From positions 1-9,707 of the forward strand of contig JAAFIG010000061.1 in the NCBI GenBank assembly GCA_013298595.1: a stretch of DNA of 9,707 nt, read 5' to 3'. The position numbers and the translations under genes were made by a program. This DNA comes from Deinococcales bacterium. GTDB lineage: Bacteria; Deinococcota; Deinococci; Deinococcales; JAAFIG01. The notes under the pieces were generated by a model. The model was not told where the DNA came from, did no database searches, and was given only the letters and a program-made list of their open reading frames with translations. This document shows, in pieces, positions 1-9,707 of this stretch; position 1 is the first letter of the stretch, and each line of letters begins with the position of its first letter.

Positions 1-2
1 AG

Positions 3-107
3 AAAGCTGTTGTGGAGAAGTGGTTACTTGATTTTTCTGGTGATGTTGAACGGGTTAAACGGTTGTGTGGGTGGGATTGGATCAAAGAGAATTTATGTCT
101 TACTTAA
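3..107 (+). CDS. C-terminal fragment of an unidentified ORF (partial at contig edge)
   Basis: An open frame enters from the left contig edge, reads about 34 codons and stops at TAA 105-107. The fragment is rich in Trp and charged residues (it contains FSGDVERVKRLCGWDWIKEN) and reads more like a real protein end than the other frames here. I do not recognise the family. Its stop overlaps by a few codons the stop of the leftward TmrB-like ORF (93-95), in the stretch where that protein loses family similarity. It may therefore belong to sequence that joined or replaced the tmrB-like 3' half. With so little sequence a chance ORF cannot be excluded. Confidence 0.35.
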   Translation, partial: KAVVEKWLLDFSGDVERVKRLCGWDWIKENLCLT

Positions 108-425
108 ATGCCAATTTGGTATTACAATGCCTTGAGCACGCAATTCGCCAATGATTTCATGAAAATACACTGGGTTCACTAAGGTCATTGGAATAAAAAT
201 TGGACACGTTTCTTCAAAAGCTAAGTGCTCGAGTGAAGTCCGTACCAGCTCGCGCCACAATGGAATATCTTGAAAATCCCCAGTTGGCGCAGGTTTAAGT
301 GTACGACGCAAAGCAAAACCAATTTCTTCAGGATCAAAAATGACTGCTGCCGAATGCAACGCCTGCATTTCAAAAACCAAACTGGTTTTCCCAACCCCAA
401 ATGCACCATTGATCCAAACAAGCAT
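93..425 (-). pseudogene. TmrB-like P-loop ATP-binding protein, C-terminally truncated
   Basis: The 110-residue product starts MLVWINGAFGVGKTS, with a Walker A motif GAFGVGKTS at residues 7-15. It continues with FDPEEIGFALR (30-40), GDFQDIPLWR (49-58) and IPMTLVNPVYFHEIIGELR (78-96). These blocks match, from memory, the N-terminal half of Bacillus TmrB (tunicamycin resistance ATP-binding protein, about 197 residues) and its many uncharacterised relatives. The expected second half is missing: after WHLSK the frame stops at 93-95, and none of the three leftward frames below that resumes TmrB-like sequence. It therefore looks like a decayed or recombined gene, although the P-loop itself is intact. 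The start is ATG 425, because the upstream TTG at 440 only adds residues absent from the family. No Shine-Dalgarno is visible. It lies 60 bases downstream of the regulator in the same direction and could be co-transcribed with it. Whether it has any resistance role is unknown. Confidence 0.7.
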
Positions 426-485
426 AAGATAAGTATGCAAAGTATTTCTGAGTCAAAATGAGTAGTTGGTCAAAGCTCTTAAAGC

Positions 486-3317
486 TCAAACCCTTACCAA
501 TGGGGTTTCTGGAACCTCGAGATACTCAATCAGTTTTGGTAATTGTTGCAATAACACTTTGTCGTTATTGATGTTTTTCTCGAGAATCTTGGCTAATTCT
601 GGTTGCTCGAGTTGCAAGCTTGGTAACCATGTGCGAAGGCAACGCCAGACAACACTGGCATTACTTAATTCCTGCCCGATTCGTAAACCCTTTAAACGCT
701 CGAGTCTGGCTTCTTCGGGTTGGGCATTGGCTTGGTAGGCATCGGCAAGCACACAACGAACTCTGGCAACCCAAAGGATATCGCCTGCACTACGAAATTT
801 TTGTAAAGCTGCATTAAAGTATTCAAAAGCCGCCACAATATTCTGGTTTCGCAGCGCAACTCGCCCTAGATTCTCGAGTACCCAAGCATGAACTTTGTTG
901 CTTTTAGCAAGCTGTGCGTATTTTTCAGCTTTGATGAAATGATCCTGAGCGCTATCCCATTGATCCTCGCGGCATTCAAGTTCGCCAAAGGTATTATGGA
1001 TACCAGCTAAACTATTAAAATCGTTCTTAACCACATTAAACTCGAGCAAATCTGATAAAATACGCCGCGCTGCAACACGATTATCTTGTTTTTCGTAAAC
1101 CAATGCCATGTTCGGCAAAACAACACTTTCCCAGTACGGATACGGGATCATTCTGCCATAGCGAATAGATTGCTCGAAATGATGCAGCGCAGCGTCGTAC
1201 TTGGCAACATCTCGAGCTTTAAGACCAATAGTGTGATGCAAAATTGCTAATTCAAAAAATAAATCTTGTGCCTCGAGTTCAAGCCTGACTTGGTTTGGCA
1301 CAAATTCGAGTTTGCCAACACCCCCTAAATTATGATGCACTTCGATAGACCAAGTTTTTAGGATACTTGTTAAGCGTTTAGTTTGACTGATCTGCAAAGC
1401 CGCTTTGATATGTTCTTGTAATTCAGGAAAACGCCCGAGCCGAAACAAAACTTCAAATAACGAACGGGTTAAAACCTCGAGGGTTGGTTCGACTCTATTT
1501 TGTAGCGCATCATGCCAAACCAATAATAAGTTTTCGACATCTTCATCCAGAATATCTGGTGGCAATTGATGACTATGTTCTGACAAGGTAACAAAATGCG
1601 TATTCAAAGCATTTTGCACAACTTCTGGGTTTTGTAAATTCCCCAAAGCATATTCACGAATAAGCGGATGTAAATCGTAACGACCATTCTCGAGGCGTTT
1701 TAACAATGCCCAGTCCATCAATTGTAACAGCGTACGATGATCCGCCCCAGCCACTGCTTTAGCGGCACTAAAAACAAAGCCACCTCGAAAAAAAGCCAAA
1801 GCTGCTAAGACTTGTTGTTGCAAAGCTGTCATCAAAGCCCACGTACTATCAAAAACAGCTTTTAAGCCAGCTTGACGCAATGGTAATTGCAACGTGGTTT
1901 CCTCGAGTAAACCCCAATTTTTTTGTAATTCCACAGCCACTTCCTGCGGACGCAAAATCCTTAACCAAGCCGCTGCTAACTCGAGGGCTAAAGGCACACC
2001 TTGTACAATACGGGTAATTTCGGCAATCGCTTCAAGGTTTTGTGAGCTGTTTGCAAAAACTGCACCATGCCGATGAGCAGCCGTTAACACCAAACGCACA
2101 GCTGCAAATTGCTCGAGATAAACAGCATTTGCCTCGGGGAAAGGCAGTCCTTGCAACATAAACACATGCTCACCAACAATATTTAAGCGCTGCCGTGACG
2201 TAACTAAGATTTGTAATTTAGGCACTTGTAATAATGTCTCGAGCAAGGCTGTTGCACTTGTCATCACTTGTTCGACATTATCTAAAACCAAACAAATATC
2301 CGCATCCATGACCAATAAAGCTTGGCGTAACTCCAGATCTGCGGCATCAAAACCAGGTAATTGTAATCCCATAGCTTGTGCGACCAAAGGCGCTAATTGT
2401 GTTTCAGCTTGCGTTGCACTCAACGAAACAAAAAAGGTTTCTGTAACCCGTAAACGCGCAAATTCAAATGCCAAACGACTCTTACCAATACCACCAATAC
2501 CAAGCAAAGTAATAACCCGAGCATCCAAATTTTGTAACGCCTCGAGTTCAGTTTCACGACCTAAAAGCGGTGTGGTTGGTTGCGGTACACTCAGTGCAGC
2601 AGTTGCTCGAGGCACCACGAAAACACGTTGCTTAAAACGTTGTTGCCACTGCTCGAGGTTAGCTGGTAAATCTAAACCAATTTCGCTTTTTAATTTACTG
2701 GCAAAAAATTGTAAAGCATCTAAACCTCGTTGCACCAACTGGCTTTGATCAGCTAATTGCAGCATTTGCTCAAGTAAAACCTCGTTAAATGGGTCTTCAC
2801 GCCAAGCTGTTTCAAGCACACCAAAAGCCGCTTCGGGTTGAGTGACTTGCAAAGACAAAGCCTGTTTTTGTGAAGCTTCAATAAAACGTTGCCGCAATTG
2901 CTGGCGTTCCAAATCTAACCAAGCCGCAAATTCAGGAACTTCCTCGAGATCTGTGGTTTGAAAACCCAGATCGCCTTTGTACCAATTGCATACTTCGGCA
3001 AAACGCTGATCCTTAAAAGCCATCAAAAATTTTTTAACATCGCTGCTGGCTGTAAAATACAAACCCTTTGGTGTTGCTTCAAACGCTGCTTCTAAACCTT
3101 GTTGCTTTGCTCGGTACAACACTTGTCGTAAACTTTGAGCACTGGTCAGCGAATCTCCCCAGAATAACAATTGCAATTCTTCACGACTAACCCATGAATC
3201 TTGGATAGCTAAATACAACAGCAACCAAGTCACACGTTGTGGTTTTAATGGCAACACCGCACCTCCGTTAAGAGGTTCAACAAAATAACCACCAAAAAAC
3301 CGAAATAAACCCGCCAT
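486..3317 (-). CDS. BTAD-domain NB-ARC/TPR transcriptional regulator (AfsR/SARP-like)
   Basis: The 943-residue product is a multidomain STAND-type regulator. Residues about 1-90 resemble an OmpR-like winged helix (LKPQRVTWLLLYLA, then a SLRQVLYRAK helix) and 95-240 the all-helical bacterial transcriptional activation (BTAD) domain. An NTPase follows: Walker A GIGGIGKS at 273-280, Walker B ICLVLDN with Asp about 346, LVTSRQRL about 371-378 and GVPLALELAA at 440-449. HPLIREYAL (about 550) marks the winged-helix end of the NB-ARC block, and the C-terminal 300 residues are TPR-like helical repeats (for example AALHHFEQSIRYGRM). Such proteins bind DNA through the N-terminus and use nucleotide and ligand sensing for control. 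The ligand and targets cannot be read from sequence. I chose ATG 3317 over an in-frame TTG at 3338, because a TATACT hexamer sits 7 bases before the ATG and the TTG lies next to the ndk terminator T-tract. There is no adjacent biosynthetic cluster to name as target. Confidence 0.88.
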   Translation of the reverse strand: MAGLFRFFGGYFVEPLNGGAVLPLKPQRVTWLLLYLAIQDSWVSREELQLLFWGDSLTSAQSLRQVLYRAKQQGLEAAFEATPKGLYFTASSDVKKFLMAFKDQRFAEVCNWYKGDLGFQTTDLEEVPEFAAWLDLERQQLRQRFIEASQKQALSLQVTQPEAAFGVLETAWREDPFNEVLLEQMLQLADQSQLVQRGLDALQFFASKLKSEIGLDLPANLEQWQQRFKQRVFVVPRATAALSVPQPTTPLLGRETELEALQNLDARVITLLGIGGIGKSRLAFEFARLRVTETFFVSLSATQAETQLAPLVAQAMGLQLPGFDAADLELRQALLVMDADICLVLDNVEQVMTSATALLETLLQVPKLQILVTSRQRLNIVGEHVFMLQGLPFPEANAVYLEQFAAVRLVLTAAHRHGAVFANSSQNLEAIAEITRIVQGVPLALELAAAWLRILRPQEVAVELQKNWGLLEETTLQLPLRQAGLKAVFDSTWALMTALQQQVLAALAFFRGGFVFSAAKAVAGADHRTLLQLMDWALLKRLENGRYDLHPLIREYALGNLQNPEVVQNALNTHFVTLSEHSHQLPPDILDEDVENLLLVWHDALQNRVEPTLEVLTRSLFEVLFRLGRFPELQEHIKAALQISQTKRLTSILKTWSIEVHHNLGGVGKLEFVPNQVRLELEAQDLFFELAILHHTIGLKARDVAKYDAALHHFEQSIRYGRMIPYPYWESVVLPNMALVYEKQDNRVAARRILSDLLEFNVVKNDFNSLAGIHNTFGELECREDQWDSAQDHFIKAEKYAQLAKSNKVHAWVLENLGRVALRNQNIVAAFEYFNAALQKFRSAGDILWVARVRCVLADAYQANAQPEEARLERLKGLRIGQELSNASVVWRCLRTWLPSLQLEQPELAKILEKNINNDKVLLQQLPKLIEYLEVPETPLVRV

Positions 3318-3324
3318 GCCAAAC

Positions 3325-3330
3325 AGTATA
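3325..3330 (-). promoter_or_regulatory. -10 element (TATACT) for a leaderless regulator mRNA
   Basis: On the minus strand TATACT is followed by 7 bases (GTTTGGC) and then the regulator ATG at 3317. A start point 6-8 bases after a -10 would fall on the start codon, giving a leaderless mRNA. No Shine-Dalgarno is present. A TTGACC further upstream (3359-3354) is 23 bases away, too far for a normal -35, and lies inside the terminator hairpin. Confidence 0.5.
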
Positions 3331-3336
3331 CAAGGC

Positions 3337-3376
3337 AAAAAAATTGTTCAGTAGGTCAAAAACCTGCTGAACAATT
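3337..3376 (-). terminator. Rho-independent terminator after ndk
   Basis: The two arms are 3362-3376 and 3342-3356, 15 bases each. They are complementary apart from one C-A mismatch in the minus-strand RNA and enclose a 5-base loop (TTTTG). The hairpin is followed by a run of seven T on the minus strand (3343-3337). It lies 19 bases past the ndk stop and directly upstream of the regulator promoter, so it should separate aroQ-ndk transcription from the regulator. Confidence 0.88.
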
Positions 3377-3395
3377 CCTAAGCGTTAACAACGAC

Positions 3396-3800
3396 TTATT
3401 TAAACCAAATACCAAGTTCTCGAGCAGCACTTTCGGCACTATCTGAACCATGTGCCACATTTTCGTCCACAGTTGTGGCAAATTCAAAACGAATCGTACC
3501 AGGAGCACTCTCCCACGGACGGGTTGCACCCATCATACGTCGCCATTCGGCAATCACATTTTCGCCCTCGAGTGTCATGGCAACCACAGCACCACCACTG
3601 AGAAAATCGACTAAACCATTAAAAAAACCTTTACCTTTGTGTTCTGCGTAATGCTCCTCAACAATTTCTCTGGTTGGGGTCAGCATTTTAAGCGCCACAA
3701 TCTTAAAACCTTTTTTCTCGAGACGCGAGATAATCTCGCCAACTAAACCACGACGGACACCGTCAGGTTTTACCATTGCAAATGTGCGTTCAATAGACAT
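3396..3800 (-). CDS. ndk: Nucleoside diphosphate kinase
   Basis: This 134-residue enzyme transfers the gamma-phosphate of ATP to (d)NDPs through a phosphohistidine, balancing cytoplasmic nucleotide pools. The family start [15 protein letters not shown] carries nucleotide-binding Lys11. [19 protein letters not shown] and the active-site motif NVAHGSDS follow, with catalytic His117 and Asn114. The length is close to the usual 135-150 residues. The start is ATG 3800; the longer open frame back to 3914 overlaps the aroQ 3' end and adds non-family residues. No Shine-Dalgarno precedes it. A weak TACGCT (3814-3809) lies 8 bases before the ATG and could be a -10. It follows aroQ by 58 bases on the same strand and ends in a strong terminator, so it is probably the last gene of an aroQ-ndk unit. 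Confidence 0.97.
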
Positions 3801-3858
3801 AGGTAGGCAGCGTACCCCAAAATTGTCAGGGCAGTTATCCTGCTGGTACATATACTGC

Positions 3859-4344
3859 TTATGCCATTCTTGGTGCAATTTGGTTTGGTGGGTCTGTGTA
3901 ATCGGGTTTTTCAAGCTCGAGCCGTGTTTTCAAGTACTCGAGTGCCAACTTATACCCTTGTGCACCAAGTCCGATAACACTGCCAACACAAACAGCAGCA
4001 ATCACACTGTGATGTCTGAATTCTTCTCGAGCATGGATATTACTCAAATGCACTTCAAGCACAGGTAAGGATTGCCCCGCAATAGCATCACGTAGCGCAT
4101 AACTGTAATGTGTCCAAGCACCTGGGTTAATCACAATGGCTTGAAACCCATTCTCGGCAGCGGTATGCACCCACTCGAGCAAAGCTCCTTCAAAATTTGT
4201 TTGTTGGCATGTCACAGCAAAACCCATTTCGGAACCCCAAGCAACAATTTGCTGCTCGAGTTCAGGCAAGGTTTGCGCCCCATAAACACTGGGTTCTCGA
4301 ATACCAAGTCGGTTGAGGTTCGCGCCATTCAGAACTAAAATCAT
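3859..4344 (-). CDS. aroQ: Type II 3-dehydroquinate dehydratase
   Basis: The enzyme removes water from 3-dehydroquinate to give 3-dehydroshikimate in the shikimate (aromatic amino acid) pathway; type II enzymes are cytoplasmic dodecamers. The family start [18 protein letters not shown] is present. Expected catalytic and binding residues are visible: Arg16 and Tyr21 (REPSVYG), Asn73 (VINPGAWTH), His99 ([13 protein letters not shown]), Arg106 and Arg110. It has 161 residues, slightly longer than the usual 145-150 because of a charged C-terminal tail ([16 protein letters not shown]). The start ATG 4344 is fixed by the family N-terminus. In-frame codons continue upstream to 4788, but they overlap the divergent gene and are not homologous. 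No Shine-Dalgarno is seen; TACAGT lies 6 bases before the ATG. The start region is tandemly duplicated. Confidence 0.97.
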
Positions 4345-4388
4345 GGTGTGACTGTAGCATCTTCTATCATGATTTGACTGTAGCATCT
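4340..4388. repeat. 26-base-period tandem duplication over the aroQ start
   Basis: Segments 4340-4362 and 4366-4388 match at 21 of 23 bases, including 14 identical bases (TGACTGTAGCATCT). On the minus strand each copy reads TACAGT, six bases, then ATG. The proximal ATG (4344) starts aroQ. The distal ATG (4370) opens a 9-codon ORF whose TGA overlaps the aroQ ATG as ATGA. Confidence 0.85.
4351..4356 (-). promoter_or_regulatory. Candidate -10 (TACAGT) for leaderless aroQ
   Basis: TACAGT ends 6 bases before the aroQ ATG on the minus strand. An identical TACAGT at 4382-4377 lies 6 bases before the upstream ATG at 4370. It matches TATAAT at four positions (T, A, A, T) and fits the placement seen at other genes in the window. 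No convincing -35 is visible. Confidence 0.4.
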
Positions 4389-4477
4389 CCTTAGGGCTTC
4401 GCGGTATTATTGAAGAGTCTGCGTATCTGTATTTGTTGCAATACCTAAAAATCACACCGTTACTCGGCTTTCTCGAG

Positions 4478-4483
4478 TAGAAT
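4478..4483 (+). promoter_or_regulatory. Candidate -10 (TAGAAT) of the TolA/TonB-like operon
   Basis: TAGAAT, five of six matches to TATAAT, lies in the divergent gap 49 bases before the GTG start. That gives a 5' leader of about 40 bases, consistent with the clear Shine-Dalgarno downstream. A CTCGAG copy (4472-4477) directly abuts it. I see no good -35 at 16-18 bases. Confidence 0.35.
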
Positions 4484-4519
4484 GTTGGCATTCTTTGACC
4501 AGTTCGTTTGGTTATCTTT

Positions 4520-4527
4520 GAGAGGTG
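4520..4527 (+). promoter_or_regulatory. Shine-Dalgarno GAGAGGTG
   Basis: This purine-rich GAGAGGTG is followed by four bases and the GTG start at 4532. It supports GTG as the true start. It is one of only two convincing ribosome binding sites in the window, and both belong to this operon. Confidence 0.7.
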
Positions 4528-4531
4528 AATT

Positions 4532-6436
4532 GTGACCCTACGTGAAGCATTAGATATTCTCGAGTTAAATCCAAATACTTTGGATGCACAATTGCTGGAA
4601 AATACGTTAAAAACCAATTTGGAAAATGTTGAATTACGCAATGTTATGCGTTTATTTGAAGCATACCGCAAAGCCAATGCGTTTATTAATCCAAGTTTGT
4701 CTACCCAAGGTGATGTTCGAGTCACCATGATAGATGAACCTGTGCCTGACGGTCCACCACTTGGTGTACGTCCAGCAGCTTTACGCATCAGCGATAACGC
4801 TGGTCGTTTGAAAAAAGATTATGTACCTGGAAAAACCTTTGATGAGACCTTGTTACAAAACCCAACGGGTCGTCATCCAACACTTCCTGATACATTCCAA
4901 ACCCAAGAAATCATGCCGAACCAATTACCAGCACCTTACGGTGTGATCAATAAAACACAAAATGTTTCGGTTGTACCAACAGATTATCCACCTGCTAAGA
5001 AACCCTCAAATTGGTTAAGTAATTTATTATGGGTTGGTGTTTTTACCGCTGGCGCATTTGCCATTGGTAATTTTGGCATTGGACCATTGTTATTTAATAA
5101 ACCAGACCCACAACCAATTAGTACTTTACCTACACCAATAGAACCAAACACGCGTCCACCGAATCCACAAAATATTACACCTGTTGGCACACCAGACCCC
5201 TCGAGTCCATCGAATACACAACCCGACCCAAGCGTCAATAACACCCCTGCTACACCAAATCCCTCGAGTGTGACCAAACCAGCCACACCTGATGCTAGTG
5301 TGGCTGCGGCTAAAGCCGAAACTGAACGAATTGCTCAAGCCAAAGCCGAAGCTGAACGTTTAGCAACAGCCGAAGCTGAACGCCTTGCATCTGCCAAAGC
5401 AAAACTTGAAGCCGAACGAATTGCAAAAGCCAAAGCCGAGACAGAACGCATTGCTAAAGCTCAAGCTGCCCAAATTACTGCAAAAGCCAAAGCTGAAGCC
5501 GAGCGTCTACAGAAAATCAAAGCCGAAGCAGCACGTATCGCCGCTGCCAAGGCTGAAGCAGCCATAAAAGCCAAAACAGAAGCAGAACAAATTGCAGCAG
5601 CAAAAGTAAAAGCTGAAGCTGCTCGTATCGCCAAAGCAAAAGCCGAGGCAACCCGTATTGCAAACGCAAAAGCAGAAGCTGCTCGAGTTGCTAGTGCAAA
5701 AGCAGAAGCGGAACGTATTGCTAAAGCCAAAGCCGAAGAAAACCGTATCGCTGCGGCTAAAGCCAATGCAGCCGCCAAAGCCGAACAAGAACGCATTGCT
5801 GCTGCCAAAGCCGAAGCCGCTCGAGTCGCAGTAGCCAAAACAGAAGCCCAACGTGTGGCAGCTGCTAAAGCTGAAGCTCAGCGCGTGGCTGCCGCCAAAG
5901 CAGCGGCAGCCACTAAACCACAAACTGCCACAAAAACCGAACAGCAACAAGCCGCTACTCGAGCTGAACAACAACGCCTTGCCAATGCTCGAGCCGAAGC
6001 AAAAGCCGCTGAGCGCCGTGCCGAACAACGCCGAGCCGCTCGATTAGAAGCTCAACGCGCAGAAGCACGCCGTATTGAACAACAAGCAGCCGCTCGCCGA
6101 GAAGCTCGAATTGCTGCCCAAAGACTAGAAGCTCAAAGAGCACAAGAACGCCGTACAGCCGAACAAGCCGCCGCCCGTAAAGCTGAGCAGCGTGCCGCAG
6201 TGCGGAAAGCTGAAGCACAAGCAGCCGCTCGAAAAGCTGCTGCTCAACGCGCAGTCACATCCACACGCAGTGTCAACCAAGCCAGTTTTAACACTTGGGA
6301 TCGAGCAGGTGCTGTTTTACGTTACCCAAGTTGGGCATATGTTCCCGATTCAGTTCGAGCATTACCACCAGCTCAATTCCGCGCTCGAGTTTACGTTGCC
6401 TCATCACCTGCCACACTACCTGGGTTACCTAGATAA
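4532..6436 (+). CDS. TolA-like membrane-anchored protein with long helical spacer, first of a tandem paralogous pair
   Basis: The product has 634 residues and belongs to no family I can name. Residues 1-55 (MTLREALDILELN...TLDA...EAYR...FINP) look helical and match the next gene's N-terminus. Residues 56-158 are a linker. About 160-188 is one hydrophobic segment (WLSNLLWVGVFTAGAFAIGN) preceded by Lys156-Lys157, suggesting N-inside topology. Residues 190-255 are Pro/Thr/Asn-rich. Residues 256-575 are almost only Ala, Lys, Glu, Arg and Gln with KAEAERIAKA-type units of about 10 residues, like TolA domain II but longer; Lys dominates early and Arg late. Residues 582-634 form a C-terminal module (FNTW...GAVLRYPSWAYVP...LP..FR) shared with the neighbour. 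The transmembrane segment lacks the His of the TolA/TonB SHxxxLS motif and no TolQ/TolR genes are adjacent, so it is not plain TolA. Probable role, by inference: a cytoplasm-to-periplasm or outer-envelope linker. The GTG start has a good Shine-Dalgarno. Confidence 0.85.
   Translation: MTLREALDILELNPNTLDAQLLENTLKTNLENVELRNVMRLFEAYRKANAFINPSLSTQGDVRVTMIDEPVPDGPPLGVRPAALRISDNAGRLKKDYVPGKTFDETLLQNPTGRHPTLPDTFQTQEIMPNQLPAPYGVINKTQNVSVVPTDYPPAKKPSNWLSNLLWVGVFTAGAFAIGNFGIGPLLFNKPDPQPISTLPTPIEPNTRPPNPQNITPVGTPDPSSPSNTQPDPSVNNTPATPNPSSVTKPATPDASVAAAKAETERIAQAKAEAERLATAEAERLASAKAKLEAERIAKAKAETERIAKAQAAQITAKAKAEAERLQKIKAEAARIAAAKAEAAIKAKTEAEQIAAAKVKAEAARIAKAKAEATRIANAKAEAARVASAKAEAERIAKAKAEENRIAAAKANAAAKAEQERIAAAKAEAARVAVAKTEAQRVAAAKAEAQRVAAAKAAAATKPQTATKTEQQQAATRAEQQRLANARAEAKAAERRAEQRRAARLEAQRAEARRIEQQAAARREARIAAQRLEAQRAQERRTAEQAAARKAEQRAAVRKAEAQAAARKAAAQRAVTSTRSVNQASFNTWDRAGAVLRYPSWAYVPDSVRALPPAQFRARVYVASSPATLPGLPR
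5297..6256 (+). repeat. Degenerate repeat coding the Ala/Lys/Glu/Arg helix
   Basis: About 960 bases encode degenerate decapeptides of the KAEAERIAKA kind, so the DNA repeats imperfectly at about 30 bases in the first two thirds. The later third is richer in Arg and Gln (EAQRAEARRIEQQAAARREA). Long open frames on other strands and frames here are by-products of this composition. Confidence 0.85.
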
Positions 6437-6441
6437 AAGGA
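6437..6441 (+). promoter_or_regulatory. Ribosome binding site (AAGGA) of the second paralogue
   Basis: AAGGA begins directly after the upstream stop and lies 9 bases before ATG 6451. The next in-frame ATG (6457) aligns better with the first paralogue's start but would be 15 bases away, so spacing favours 6451. Confidence 0.6.
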
Positions 6442-6450
6442 TAAAATGTT

Positions 6451-8127
6451 ATGCCTATGACACTTCGAGAAGCCATGCAAGTACTCGAGTTAAATGATCG
6501 AACACTCGATGCCAGTATGCTCGAGAGTGCCGCACTTGAAAAAATGCGAGCCGCAAAAACCTTATTAGAACAAAGCGATGTCATCGAGGCATACCGCCGT
6601 GTCCAAATTTTTATAGACCCAACAGCAACACTAAACCCAGATGCTGCCGAATCCCAAGCGCTCGAACGTCCTCGAGATTTTGCCGCTGCTGCCCAAACCG
6701 ATTTTGAATTGGATTTATGGGAATTAAAACGAGCTGCTCAATTTCCAGTTATTCAAGCACAACAAACCGCATATTCTGTGGCTGATCAAACCGCTCTTGC
6801 CATACCGCAAACAGAACCCTCACAAACCAACAACGATGATGGCATCGAAGCAAACCCAGCTTGGACACAATTACAAAATGCCCTCGAGCCAAACCAAAAA
6901 CCTGCAACACCTATCTTAGATGATTTAGATCACACATTTGACGATTCTTTACTACACGCTGTTGCTAAACCCAATGTTCCCACCGATGAACGCGCTTTAA
7001 CTGTTGTTGAAGACTACGAAGGGTACATGGGCAGCCGAGTAACGGCTGAATTACCAGCAGTCAAAATTGTACCTGACACAAAAACAACAACTTCCAAAAA
7101 TGCTAAAACCATAGCAGGTAAAAGTGCCACTTCGACCACACCAATCAAACCAAATTCAAATACCAGCACAAAACAAAAACCCCAACCAGCCCAACCAAAC
7201 ACGGATCGCCGCACATCTCGAGCCGCTAAAATCAGTAAAGTCAGTAAAGCCTATGACCCACCTAAATCCAATCGTCGTTCAGGATCAAATTTATGGTTAT
7301 GGTTTGTGGCAGCCACTGCATTAATTGGCACTGGTATTTTTGCTGCACCAATGCTTCTCAAACAATTATCCCGCAGTACCACAGTTGCACCTGTTGCTCC
7401 TCGAGTTCAATTAAGTGTACCAACAGTGCCACCTGCCCCAAGTCGAACAAACCCAATCAAACCCAAGCCAAAACCAGTGGCTAAACCAGCTATGGCAACA
7501 AAACCACTACCAAAACCTAAACCAGTGGCTAAACCTGCTACCAAACCCGTTGCTAAACCCGCCCAAACAGCAACCACAAAACCTGCGGTTGCAAAGCCTA
7601 CAAGCACACCTGCCCCCAAACCAGAAAAGGTCGTGCCAGTTGCAACACCTGCACCACAACCCGCAGTTGTTCAAACCCCTGTCCAACCTGTTGCACCAAA
7701 ACCCAAACCACAAGCTAAACCCAAGCCAAAACCCGCAGCAAAACCCCCTGTGCCTGATGCTCAAAGTGCCACAGTGTTACCGCCAATTACCGAAAATCCA
7801 GCACCACCTGTGGTTATTCAAAAACCAACCACAAAACCAAAGCCTAAACCTGCTACCAAACCAACTCCTAAACCAATACCCGTCACAATCGCACCACAAC
7901 AACCACCTGTTGCAGCCGCACCCACAACACCCCCAGAACCTGTGCTAGATGTCAATAATTTATCTCGAGAACAAATTGGTCGGCGTTTCTTGAATGAAAA
8001 ATACTTTGATACGTGGCAAATCCAAGGGGCTGTTCTTAAATTCCCTAGCTGGGCAGATATTCCACTGGCAATTCAGGTGTTGCCTTTAGCAGAGTTTCGC
8101 AGTGCAGTACTGATTTCATTGCCCTAA
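6451..8127 (+). CDS. TonB-like membrane-anchored protein with Pro/Lys spacer, second of the tandem pair
   Basis: The product has 558 residues. Residues 3-58 (MTLREAMQVLELN..TLDA..LE...EAYR....FIDP) align with the first paralogue's N-terminus. Residues 60-280 are a longer, mostly polar cytoplasmic region, acidic near 155-195 and basic near 250-278. About 281-303 is one transmembrane segment (LWLWFVAATALIGTGIFAA) preceded by Lys272, Arg275 and Arg276, so N-inside. Residues 310-500 are Pro/Lys/Ala/Thr-rich with KPKPVAKPA-type units, like the TonB periplasmic spacer. Residues 512-558 repeat the C-terminal module: FDTW..QGAVLKFPSWADIP..IQVLPLAEFR, identical to the first protein at 19 of 40 aligned positions. 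The gene starts 14 bases after its partner and is surely in the same operon. The transmembrane segment lacks a His of the TonB type, and no ExbB/ExbD genes adjoin. Function is unknown; I infer a partner or alternative form of the first protein. Confidence 0.85.
   Translation: MPMTLREAMQVLELNDRTLDASMLESAALEKMRAAKTLLEQSDVIEAYRRVQIFIDPTATLNPDAAESQALERPRDFAAAAQTDFELDLWELKRAAQFPVIQAQQTAYSVADQTALAIPQTEPSQTNNDDGIEANPAWTQLQNALEPNQKPATPILDDLDHTFDDSLLHAVAKPNVPTDERALTVVEDYEGYMGSRVTAELPAVKIVPDTKTTTSKNAKTIAGKSATSTTPIKPNSNTSTKQKPQPAQPNTDRRTSRAAKISKVSKAYDPPKSNRRSGSNLWLWFVAATALIGTGIFAAPMLLKQLSRSTTVAPVAPRVQLSVPTVPPAPSRTNPIKPKPKPVAKPAMATKPLPKPKPVAKPATKPVAKPAQTATTKPAVAKPTSTPAPKPEKVVPVATPAPQPAVVQTPVQPVAPKPKPQAKPKPKPAAKPPVPDAQSATVLPPITENPAPPVVIQKPTTKPKPKPATKPTPKPIPVTIAPQQPPVAAAPTTPPEPVLDVNNLSREQIGRRFLNEKYFDTWQIQGAVLKFPSWADIPLAIQVLPLAEFRSAVLISLP
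7441..7950 (+). repeat. Degenerate Pro/Lys-coding repeats
   Basis: CCAAAACCT- and GCTAAACCA-like units code for KPKP and AKPA peptides; for example CCAGTGGCTAAACC occurs at about 7475 and again about 7523. This stretch contains no CTCGAG. It forms the extended periplasmic spacer of the second paralogue. Confidence 0.7.
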
Positions 8128-8148
8128 AGACTTGCTGAACCGTAAAAT

Positions 8149-9129
8149 TCACGCTCGTGGAAAAATATCTGTCTCGAGGTATGCCCGTAAACGTTGCTCG
8201 GTTATCTCGAGATATTTTTGTGCTTGGGCTTGTAGACTGGCTGTTTCGTTGATCAGCAAATCATTGGCGAGTAACAATTGCCGACCTGCCACAATCGCCT
8301 CGAGTTCAGCTTGGCTGTAATTGGGTAAATGCCCGTACCCTTCAAGCAACGCATTCTCGAGAGCAGCACTCTTTTTTAAGCGGCGTAAATAAAAGAAACT
8401 GATTCCAAAGTCTTGCAAAGGTACGCCTGTGGCACTGTCATCGAAATCAAAAACGGAGAGTTTCCTTCGAGACCATTTCAAATTCCAAAAATGCAAATCG
8501 GCATGGAGTGGCACAGCAATAAATCGTGTAAAGAGTTTGGTCTGAATAGTTTCTACTTTTTGATATGCTGCTTTCATCACCTCGAGCCGCGTTGCTGGCA
8601 TGGGTGTATCAAAAATCACCACTTTAGAATCAATGAACACATCTTTGGCATCTTGGAATTGGCAACCTTTGGGAATCTGCCAGGTCGCAGCATGTTGATG
8701 CAATGTCCGTAACGCGTTACCAGTTGCTTGAAGTTGCAACTCAGAAGCACTCAAGCCAAGGTCTTTACCAGATAACCAAGAAAACAAAACCGCCACGGTA
8801 TCTCGATTCAGTGTATTTGAAAAGAAACTCGAGATCAGCGCTCCATCTTTACGAGGTATTGGACGCGGCACAATCAAATCGGTATCGGTTGCCAATGCCT
8901 CGAGCCACGCGATTTCGGCTTGTAAGGCTGCCATTGGACGACGCGAATTGACATTGATTCGCAAAGCAAATTTTTGCCCATTTGTGGTGTCCACCCGAAA
9001 CGTTGTATTAAACCCATGATTGATACAACGTACTCGAGCCACTTGAATCGGGTATTGCTCGAGAATACGCAGTGCATCAGAGCGAAGTCGCAGAATCTGT
9101 GCTCGAGTCGAAAGTTCGGCAAAGGTCAT
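8149..9129 (-). CDS. Phosphotransferase-family (APH-like) small-molecule kinase
   Basis: The 326-residue product has the aminoglycoside-phosphotransferase/choline-kinase fold. NHGFNTTFRVDT (residues 37-48) is the nucleotide-binding hairpin, KFALRINV the beta strand that carries the usual Lys or Arg, and LQAEIAWLEAL the partner helix. The catalytic loop HADLHFWNLKW has His209, Asp211 and Asn216, and DFDD (228-231) is the Mg-binding motif. These residues suggest an active kinase. Substrate cannot be assigned: the family includes homoserine, choline, protein (SrkA) and drug kinases. I chose ATG 9129 because earlier in-frame codons (to 9222) overlap the divergent GNAT gene and are not family-like, and because TATATT lies 6 bases upstream. 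The stop is 21 bases from the stop of the convergent TonB-like gene, with no obvious terminator between them. Confidence 0.87.
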   Translation of the reverse strand: MTFAELSTRAQILRLRSDALRILEQYPIQVARVRCINHGFNTTFRVDTTNGQKFALRINVNSRRPMAALQAEIAWLEALATDTDLIVPRPIPRKDGALISSFFSNTLNRDTVAVLFSWLSGKDLGLSASELQLQATGNALRTLHQHAATWQIPKGCQFQDAKDVFIDSKVVIFDTPMPATRLEVMKAAYQKVETIQTKLFTRFIAVPLHADLHFWNLKWSRRKLSVFDFDDSATGVPLQDFGISFFYLRRLKKSAALENALLEGYGHLPNYSQAELEAIVAGRQLLLANDLLINETASLQAQAQKYLEITEQRLRAYLETDIFPRA

Positions 9130-9135
9130 CGTGCA

Positions 9136-9141
9136 AATATA
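9136..9141 (-). promoter_or_regulatory. -10 element (TATATT) for a leaderless kinase mRNA
   Basis: TATATT on the minus strand is followed by TGCACG and the ATG at 9129. No Shine-Dalgarno fits in this space, so transcription probably starts at or beside the A of the ATG. No convincing -35 is seen at 16-18 bases. Confidence 0.5.
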
Positions 9142-9204
9142 CGAGAAAATCGTACAACTGCGCTTACGCCGTTTAGCGGATGGCGCAACCCAACACTCGA
9201 GGCT

Positions 9205-9210
9205 TACGAT
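9205..9210 (+). promoter_or_regulatory. Candidate -10 (TACGAT) for a leaderless GNAT mRNA
   Basis: TACGAT is followed by AAAACC and the ATG at 9217. It matches TATAAT at four of six positions, with the same 6-base spacing as the divergent kinase. A CTCGAG copy (9196-9201) lies 3 bases upstream. Confidence 0.4.
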
Positions 9211-9216
9211 AAAACC

Positions 9217-9707
9217 ATGCAAATCCGAGATTTTATCATGACTGACTTAGCCCAAGTGGTCGCTGTGCAAAACATTGTTATTCCTAATCAAGCCCTCAGC
9301 CTCAGTGAACTCGAGCATGACTTAACTACACTTGAGGAGAATGTCCGCCCGTTTTATTTGGTTGCCGAGGAGAACAACCGAGTTGTAGGCGCTGCCAATT
9401 ATCATCGTTTTGCAGGTGCGTATCACCCGAACAAATTTGGTGTTGAAATCTGGGTGCACCCAGAATCCCAAGGGCGCGGCATTGGCAGCGCCCTTTATGC
9501 TGCCATTCTCGAGAAATTAGCGCCACTCGAACCCATTTCAATCAACACCCAAGTACGAGAATCCGATGCTCGAGCCATGCAGTTTGCGACAAAACGCGGT
9601 TATACCGAAATCAAACGCGATTTTGAGAGTTTACTAGACATCAGCAATTTCTCGAGTCAACCATACCAAGCAAAAATCTCGAGTTTAGAGCAAAGAGATC
9701 GGAAGAG
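9217..9707 (+). CDS. GNAT-family N-acetyltransferase, N-terminal part (runs off contig)
   Basis: About 159 genuine codons are visible with no stop. MQIRDFIMTDLAQVVAVQN is a typical GNAT first strand and helix. FYLVAEENNRVVGAANYHRF and FGVEIWVHPESQGRGIGSALY follow; the latter is motif A, with the acetyl-CoA pyrophosphate loop QGRGIG. INTQVRESDARAMQFATKRGYTEIKR is the C-terminal part of the fold. The continuation (ESLLDISNFSSQPYQAKISSLE) goes beyond a single GNAT domain. It resembles, from memory, roughly 300-residue tandem-GNAT proteins, so a second domain may lie off the contig. The acceptor substrate is unknown. The last 12 bases are sequencing adapter, so residues after the final LEQ are artefact. 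It is divergent from the kinase with an 87-base gap. Confidence 0.85.
   Translation, partial: MQIRDFIMTDLAQVVAVQNIVIPNQALSLSELEHDLTTLEENVRPFYLVAEENNRVVGAANYHRFAGAYHPNKFGVEIWVHPESQGRGIGSALYAAILEKLAPLEPISINTQVRESDARAMQFATKRGYTEIKRDFESLLDISNFSSQPYQAKISSLEQRDRK
9696..9707 (+). other. Illumina adapter remnant
   Basis: The final 12 bases AGATCGGAAGAG are the start of the standard Illumina TruSeq adapter. Genomic sequence therefore ends at about 9695, inside the GNAT gene. Confidence 0.9.

Follow-up and report, generated by a model that had tools for sequence, protein, structure and literature searches.

Why should a stretch of 9,707 nucleotides from a Deinococcales bacterium (the window) contain the hexamer CTCGAG 59 times, from position 228 to 9683? 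A recount reproduced exactly the number and span given in an earlier note on this DNA, while dinucleotide shuffles of the window (n=200) yielded 0.93 copies on average and never more than 4. Markov expectations are 0.9 at order 1, 21.6 at order 3 and 51.8 at order 4, the last figure being circular since the 5-mers behind it belong to the CTCGAG sites themselves, and the runner-up palindromic hexamer in the window reaches 16 copies. The over-representation claimed earlier is therefore real, but the 25-fold excess given for it is too low, about 60-fold being the appropriate figure with 0.9 copies expected.

Table 1. Exact occurrences of CTCGAG in the 9,707-nt window
Site	Position	Strand	Location
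1	228..233	.	in ORF 93-440
2	516..521	.	TPR/AAA regulator gene (486-3338, -)
3	579..584	.	regulator
4	606..611	.	regulator
5	699..704	.	regulator
6	873..878	.	regulator
7	1041..1046	.	regulator
8	1211..1216	.	regulator
9	1272..1277	.	regulator
10	1476..1481	.	regulator
11	1689..1694	.	regulator
12	1902..1907	.	regulator
13	1980..1985	.	regulator
14	2112..2117	.	regulator
15	2238..2243	.	regulator
16	2541..2546	.	regulator
17	2606..2611	.	regulator
18	2652..2657	.	regulator
19	2943..2948	.	regulator
20	3419..3424	.	ndk gene (3396-3914, -)
21	3567..3572	.	ndk
22	3717..3722	.	ndk
23	3916..3921	.	aroQ ORF end / upstream of ndk
24	3937..3942	.	aroQ ORF
25	4026..4031	.	aroQ ORF
26	4174..4179	.	aroQ ORF
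27	4255..4260	.	aroQ ORF
28	4472..4477	.	between aroQ and envelope-type ORF 1
29	4559..4564	.	envelope-type ORF 1 (4532-6436, +)
30	5200..5205	.	envelope-type ORF 1
31	5263..5268	.	envelope-type ORF 1
32	5682..5687	.	envelope-type ORF 1
33	5820..5825	.	envelope-type ORF 1
34	5958..5963	.	envelope-type ORF 1
35	5988..5993	.	envelope-type ORF 1
36	6384..6389	.	envelope-type ORF 1
37	6484..6489	.	envelope-type ORF 2 (6451-8127, +)
38	6520..6525	.	envelope-type ORF 2
39	6671..6676	.	envelope-type ORF 2
40	6883..6888	.	envelope-type ORF 2
41	7217..7222	.	envelope-type ORF 2
42	7400..7405	.	envelope-type ORF 2
43	7964..7969	.	envelope-type ORF 2
44	8173..8178	.	APH-family kinase gene (8149-9222, -)
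45	8206..8211	.	kinase
46	8299..8304	.	kinase
47	8356..8361	.	kinase
48	8581..8586	.	kinase
49	8828..8833	.	kinase
50	8899..8904	.	kinase
51	9033..9038	.	kinase
52	9058..9063	.	kinase
53	9102..9107	.	kinase ORF, upstream part
54	9196..9201	.	kinase ORF, upstream part / intergenic
55	9310..9315	.	GNAT-type ORF (8974-9705, +; runs off window end)
56	9508..9513	.	GNAT-type ORF
57	9569..9574	.	GNAT-type ORF
58	9651..9656	.	GNAT-type ORF
59	9678..9683	.	GNAT-type ORF

Genome statistics were drawn from samples of 426-454 kb and from whole-genome counts. The 4.58-Mb genome that holds the window (G000) contains 27,159 copies, or one per 169 bp, against 15 of the reversed control word GAGCTC, and in a 426-kb sample 2,517 copies stand against 43.5 expected at order 1 (a 58-fold excess) and 179 at order 2. 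Codon usage does not account for this, since 390 kb of coding DNA hold 2,295 sites but only 192 +/- 13 after synonymous-codon shuffling, a null that falls to 85 when codon usage is taken outside the sites. The earlier argument that codon or amino-acid preference is not the cause is thereby borne out, and all three codon phases are indeed used as it had stated, although phase 0, reading Leu-Glu, dominates (1356/575/364). Intergenic DNA of this genome carries 5.8-6.2 sites per kb, equal to the coding density; promoter regions are not avoided (5.8 per kb between divergent, 6.3 between tandem and 5.0 between convergent genes), and occupancy is even along gene length. With coding and non-coding densities of 5.88 and 5.79 per kb, and about 5,900 copies per Mb lying above the several hundred to 2,500 that mark a highly iterated palindrome (HIP), the genome-wide pattern is that of a HIP, as the earlier note had proposed.

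The avoidance of CTCGAG expected of a host with active XhoI-type restriction is absent from the genome-wide count, which shows a strong excess instead, so that the argument made earlier against an enzyme cutting unmodified CTCGAG holds. It could be argued that almost all other palindromes are avoided and that CTCGAG merely stands out by exemption. Other palindromes are indeed extremely avoided (GGCC 8 versus 1,065 expected, GAGCTC 1 versus 83), and Thermus, where 84 of 98 TCGA tetramers fall within CCTCGAGG, would be one such case; but counts in the present family (f1) are 12-27 times the synonymous null, well above neutral, which contradicts exemption there and makes it extremely improbable as the explanation. 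It may hold for Thermus, in which conservation of the CCTCGAGG octamer is not above controls and which we have rejected as a carrier, the octamer being a remnant of avoided TCGA.

The element belongs to an uncultured lineage of family rank, placed in the same order as Meiothermus and Truepera, whose members are kin of Thermus and Meiothermus. About 6-8 sites per kb are found in all four f1 genomes examined (G000-G003; 91-94% complete, G+C 45-59%) and in one genus of a neighbouring family, f2; samples of the four and of one f2 genome give 5.55-6.28 per kb despite that spread in G+C. Whole-genome counts are 26,619-28,178 in f1, and in f2 21,868 for G012 and 683 for G004, the nearest low relative having 0.3 per kb; G104 also counts as HIP-rich and G041 as HIP-poor. 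The cultured and fully sequenced Meiothermus ruber shows a weaker form with about 7,600 copies, and a weaker preference for NCTCGAGN forms is visible in Meiothermus and Marinithermus. Viral contigs scanned for clustered CTCGAG were mostly high-GC contigs, none with the f1 signature.

The sites are moreover conserved between relatives. Between the congeneric G000 and G001, 158 of 274 sites (58%) are retained against 17% of same-composition hexamers, which is the positional conservation expected of HIPs and answers the comparison suggested earlier; 50% against 13% are retained in the comparison with G003, and 10 of 43 against 14% in that with G002. Flanks are not conserved (identity 0.704 versus 0.711 overall for G000-G001), and in f1 they do not prolong the palindrome symmetrically, which limits the element to six base pairs. 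Where both proteins share a slot, it holds a site with probability 0.79 if the partner has one and still 0.44 if the partner lacks it, the latter pointing to strong gain pressure; synonymous third bases are only 40% identical in the same comparison. Some ongoing upkeep of CTCGAG, as suggested in the earlier note, is thus upheld.

This density has altered the proteins themselves. CTCGAG occupies 57% of all protein-compatible positions, with a range of 50-58% across f1, compared with 4% in G004; the Leu-Glu dipeptide stands at 2.08-2.43 times expectation while Glu-Leu stays at 0.97-1.12, and two thirds of Leu-Glu pairs are encoded by CTCGAG, the proteome having moved towards Leu-Glu.

Such observations could be explained without any function, if sequence-specific repair or conversion turned near-matches into CTCGAG. 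The frequent gain in empty slots, the shift of amino acids towards Leu-Glu and the even spread across genes, intergenic DNA and promoters all agree with this notion, and since shared slots in G002 and G003 are filled independently of the partner (on small numbers), biased mutation or repair alone may suffice. It is however in poor agreement with site conservation well above control hexamers, with the mutual exclusion of sites described below, and with near-matches that are above expectation in the 426-kb sample (CTTGAG 1.67x, TTCGAG 3.05x) rather than depleted; very-short-patch repair, which would deplete its precursors, is rejected on the last ground, and functionless bias as a whole seems distinctly unlikely.

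A self-marking or DNA-uptake sequence likewise has something in its favour. Known uptake sequences, such as the Neisseria DUS and Haemophilus USS, are dispersed over-represented motifs as well, but they are longer and occur about once per kb, unlike a strict 6-bp palindrome at about 6 per kb. The wider group of the carriers includes the naturally transformable Thermus, and T. scotoductus is called naturally competent in the title of a published account (PMC3235269). Sites are scarce in low-GC stretches (1.1 per kb below 36% G+C, about 7 above 48%), which are taken here to be recent imports, but this scarcity is predicted by any slow accumulation, and an uptake function is very unlikely.

In f1, spacings below about 20 bp between neighbouring sites are 2-3-fold rarer than expected. 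Pairs 6-15 bp apart number 25 against 76-96 expected (z about -8.5), a deficit replicated in G001-G003 (z about -6) but absent in M. ruber, G006 and G008, so the exclusion may be a property of f1 alone, or of high density. Hairpin avoidance was rejected as its cause, since other GC-rich hexamers show no deficit of inverted pairs at those distances. No convincing helical or long-range period remained after removal of the codon (mod 3) component, and the peaks near 102 and 205, which were the strongest, are the lowest frequencies of the 205-point range.

The exclusion bears on the possibility that a solitary methyltransferase methylates CTCGAG, with methyl-directed repair or another reader creating and keeping the sites. 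According to Elhai (2015, PMC4390886), a methyltransferase able to methylate the HIP is present in all cyanobacterial genomes in which one is highly over-represented; an orphan CTCGAG methyltransferase is known from Nocardia, where the sites cluster near dnaA (Blow et al. 2016, PMC4752239), m5C occurs at CTCGAG in Halorubrum (PMC8112702), and each f1 genome has several candidate enzymes in the five Pfam families searched (PF00145, PF01555, PF07669, PF02086 and PF02384, in up to 31 genomes). The same searches nevertheless found no methyltransferase common to all HIP-rich genomes, nor one common to all f1 genomes, the widest ortholog group covering two of the four. Among the enzymes rejected as lineage-wide CTCGAG methyltransferases, the main C5 enzyme of G000 (at C15) shares 58% identity with an enzyme whose annotated neighbour is an HpaII-family endonuclease, and so probably targets CCGG, the TaqI-like adenine enzyme of G000 (C11) lacks an ortholog in other f1 genomes, an N4/N6 enzyme (C34) is 33% identical to its best match, and a fourth (C66) sits in a site-free low-GC island. 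In these searches the complete G006 genome yielded only a type-I-like N6 enzyme and a TaqI-like one, the latter 51-54% identical to Thermus enzymes and matching none of the f1 methyltransferases compared. A CTCGAG methyltransferase may lie outside the five families, or different enzymes of the same specificity may serve each genome, but a transiently acting methyltransferase also predicts no exclusion within 20 bp, and we consider a methylase-linked HIP possible but doubtful. Of the parallel with HIP1 drawn in the earlier note the pattern thus stands, whereas its link to a solitary methyltransferase, for which a search had been suggested, is unsupported by the searches in these five families.

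The reading that we tentatively prefer, at somewhat short of even confidence, is that CTCGAG is a HIP-type element under continuing pressure on its six base pairs, probably recognised by a chromosome-wide DNA-binding factor. Such pressure would both create and keep the ~27,000 copies per genome, and would mainly select for sites that a symmetric factor can recognise, the footprint of that factor leaving no use for a further CTCGAG within about 20 bp. Candidates would be a nucleoid protein, a repair protein or a methylase missed by the Pfam searches, and the system may have been amplified from the weaker order-wide preference for NCTCGAGN forms. It counts against this reading that intergenic density in G002 is 12-13 per kb, twice that of coding DNA, which fits poorly with a fixed target density, and so do the lack of short-range exclusion in M. 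ruber, G006 and G008, the strong gain pressure on empty slots and the control-level conservation of the Thermus octamer. The more specific proposal that CTCGAG is the repeat unit of a methylation-independent nucleoid system, with a symmetric protein of ~20-bp footprint placed on average every ~170 bp and a demand that rewrites proteins genome-wide, is unlikely.

Like HIP1 (GCGATCGC) and the alternate cyanobacterial HIPs, CTCGAG is a short GC-rich palindrome dispersed genome-wide far over Markov expectation, and it is likewise lineage-wide, lost in some relatives and accompanied by lineage-specific sequence variants. It differs from HIP1 in sequence, in phylum and in having no associated methyltransferase found, and it is 2-12 times denser than most cyanobacterial HIPs, which number 500-2,500 per Mb (Elhai 2015, PMC4390886); the short-range exclusion and the proteome-wide Leu-Glu enrichment are measurements on the present lineage alone. 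The hexamer is identical to that of the Nocardia orphan methyltransferase, but here it is found everywhere rather than near dnaA, and no such enzyme was found. Since the purpose of HIP1 in cyanobacteria is unsettled, an independent and denser HIP in another phylum makes the competing explanations testable, all the more as this lineage offers site exclusion, no common methylase found and, in M. ruber, a cultured and sequenced relative with a weaker form. It also shows, in extreme form, how a signal in the DNA can rewrite a proteome, with Leu-Glu doubled and two thirds of it written as CTCGAG.

The 59 copies of CTCGAG that the earlier note had counted in the window are indeed present at positions 228-9683, against a mean of 0.93 and a maximum of 4 in dinucleotide shuffles; expectation is 0.9 under an order-1 and 21.6 under an order-3 model, and an order-4 model comes near the real count only because its 5-mers are pieces of the sites. 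Nor does the frequency fall to background elsewhere, since the entire source genome (G000, 4.58 Mb) holds 27,159 copies, or one per 169 bp, against 15 of the reversed word GAGCTC, and in a 426-kb sample CTCGAG reaches 58 times its order-1 expectation. That codon preference is not the cause, as had been argued, is borne out by shuffling synonymous codons with proteins fixed, which predicts 192 sites where 2,295 exist, or just 85 when codon usage is taken outside the sites.

With genes called simply as longest ORFs, the site is present at 57% of protein-compatible positions, the three phases pooled, and encodes 67% of Leu-Glu dipeptides. Furthermore, Leu-Glu occurs at 2.26 times expectation but Glu-Leu at 0.97 times; protein sequence has therefore been altered to make room for CTCGAG. 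A regulatory site is ruled out by the facts that density in this genome is the same between genes as within them, that promoter-bearing gaps carry the site as well, and that occupancy is uniform along genes. In G002 only, another genome of the same family (f1), intergenic density is 12-13/kb, about twice that within genes (L145, L146, L148, L066). Low-GC stretches contain few sites and are probably recent imports, suggesting that sites build up after arrival.

All four f1 genomes, draft assemblies 91-94% complete, hold 26,600-28,200 copies each, and in f2, a neighbouring family, genus g11 is likewise rich (21,868 in G012; 14,690 in G016, whose assembly is 58% complete), while the f2 genome G004 has 683, fewer than its control word. 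Density is 5.6-6.3/kb in samples of f1 and G012 despite a G+C content of 45%-59%. The phylum comparison covered 111 genomes, all of one order, with Deinococcus outside it; Meiothermus ruber DSM 1279 (3,097,457 bp) and Truepera radiovictrix (3,260,398 bp) belong to the same order as the source lineage, which places that lineage in Deinococcota. Weaker excesses occur in M. ruber (231 against 22 expected in 96 kb), in G006 (191 against 28), which appears to be Marinithermus just as genus g7 appears to be Thermus, and in G104 (98 against 6). Flanking bases are specified too in several weaker carriers (CCTCGAGG in the relative G008, GCTCGAGC in G104), and in Meiothermus the site is flanked by C or G on either side; the f1 element is strictly six bp, its eight-bp palindromic extension being disfavoured.

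As to pattern, the proposed parallel with cyanobacterial HIP1 holds, CTCGAG fitting the definition of a highly iterated palindrome (HIP). HIP1 and the alternate HIPs number about 500-2,500 copies per Mb, and every one is accompanied by a DNA methyltransferase (MTase) able to methylate it (Elhai 2015, PMC4390886). The present element reaches about 5,900 per Mb and belongs to a different phylum, and no MTase for it was recognised in the five Pfam families searched. No prior account tying CTCGAG or CCTCGAGG to Meiothermus or HIPs was found among the open-access papers searched, so priority for the element is not proven.

The maintenance process postulated earlier finds support in comparisons between related genomes. 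At 71% DNA identity, 158 of 274 sites (58%) are kept between G000 and its family member G001, against 17% of same-composition hexamers, and flanks are conserved no more than average. The same conservation is seen in G003 and weakly in G002 (10/43, a small sample), from short alignments of 4-5 kb. Where both proteins permit a site, G001 has one in 79% of cases if G000 does and in 44% if not, and since synonymous third bases agree in only 40% of cases, strong gain and retention must both operate. Biased repair, ranked third as the source of CTCGAG, seems improbable. In f1 the sites also exclude one another at short range: with available positions controlled, spacings of 6-15 bp between sites are 3-4-fold scarcer than expected in G000, and G001-G003 show a shortfall of about 2-fold. 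For other GC-rich hexamers, inverted pairs show no depletion at these distances. In M. ruber, G006 and G008 the exclusion did not appear.

Other palindromic hexamers are mostly avoided in the 426-kb sample, many being nearly absent (GGCC 12 against 1,299 expected; TTCGAA 1 against 136). Sample L026-L045 has 8 GGCC where synonymous shuffling predicts 1,065, and GAGCTC, TTCGAA and ATGCAT have about one or no copy each there. Near-total avoidance is common to f1, except that GGCC depletion is not reported for G002, and suggests intense past restriction pressure. In the Thermus-type genomes G049 and G053 (L369-L373), 84 of the 98 TCGA tetramers per 100 kb sit in CCTCGAGG and TCGA in every other context is about 16-fold avoided, probably due to TaqI-type systems; between-species conservation of the octamer is no higher there than that of controls.

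A methylase model as for HIP1, which we rank second and consider rather doubtful, would lead one to expect a shared MTase in carriers. Among PF00145, PF01555, PF07669, PF02086 and PF02384, searched in up to 31 genomes with most f1 and G012 matches compared, the largest f1 ortholog groups reach two of the four genomes, and the suggested link to a solitary MTase thus finds no enzyme common to all four; an MTase from outside these families, one that escaped recognition, or non-homologous MTases that share a specificity may nevertheless be at work. G000, G001 and G012 have a C5 MTase in common, with 58% identity to a plasmid MTase annotated beside an HpaII-family endonuclease, in agreement with CCGG avoidance in these genomes.

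Several further features were observed. The ORF pair conserved in L068 and L072 looks like a defence locus and its MTase has a homologue in M. ruber; the L062 pair, found only in G000, is possibly a restriction-modification pair. The assembly probably broke at the repeat opening the window. The two adjoining window ORFs listed below have low-complexity middles, Ala/Lys- and Pro/Lys-rich, and no Pfam match.

Coordinates of further features in the window and in sampled loci (L)
Location	Coordinates	Feature
Window	1-124	repeat of ~124 bases, near-identical copies at ends of several other contigs (C18, C46, C39, C4)
Window	4532-6436	ORF adjoining the next, N-termini alike, C-termini alike
Window	6451-8127	ORF adjoining the previous one
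L034	9088-9173, 11609-11761, 15664-15740	scattered repeats of 70-150 bp, numerous in G000, with some copies in G001
L062	6312-8736	307-aa ORF of unknown family immediately before TaqI-like adenine MTase
L068 (conserved in G000 and G012)	1629-8224	~1,000-aa ORF and Eco57I-type MTase ORF (~1,250-1,360 aa)
L072 (conserved in G000 and G012)	359-7476	same pair

The limited negative result for MTases favours instead selection of CTCGAG for recognition by a DNA-binding factor, which is our preferred if still tentative reading. Site density, proteome effect, conservation and exclusion are its observed steps, to which the mechanism would add the factor itself, a footprint of that factor on the DNA and an origin that may extend to the whole order.
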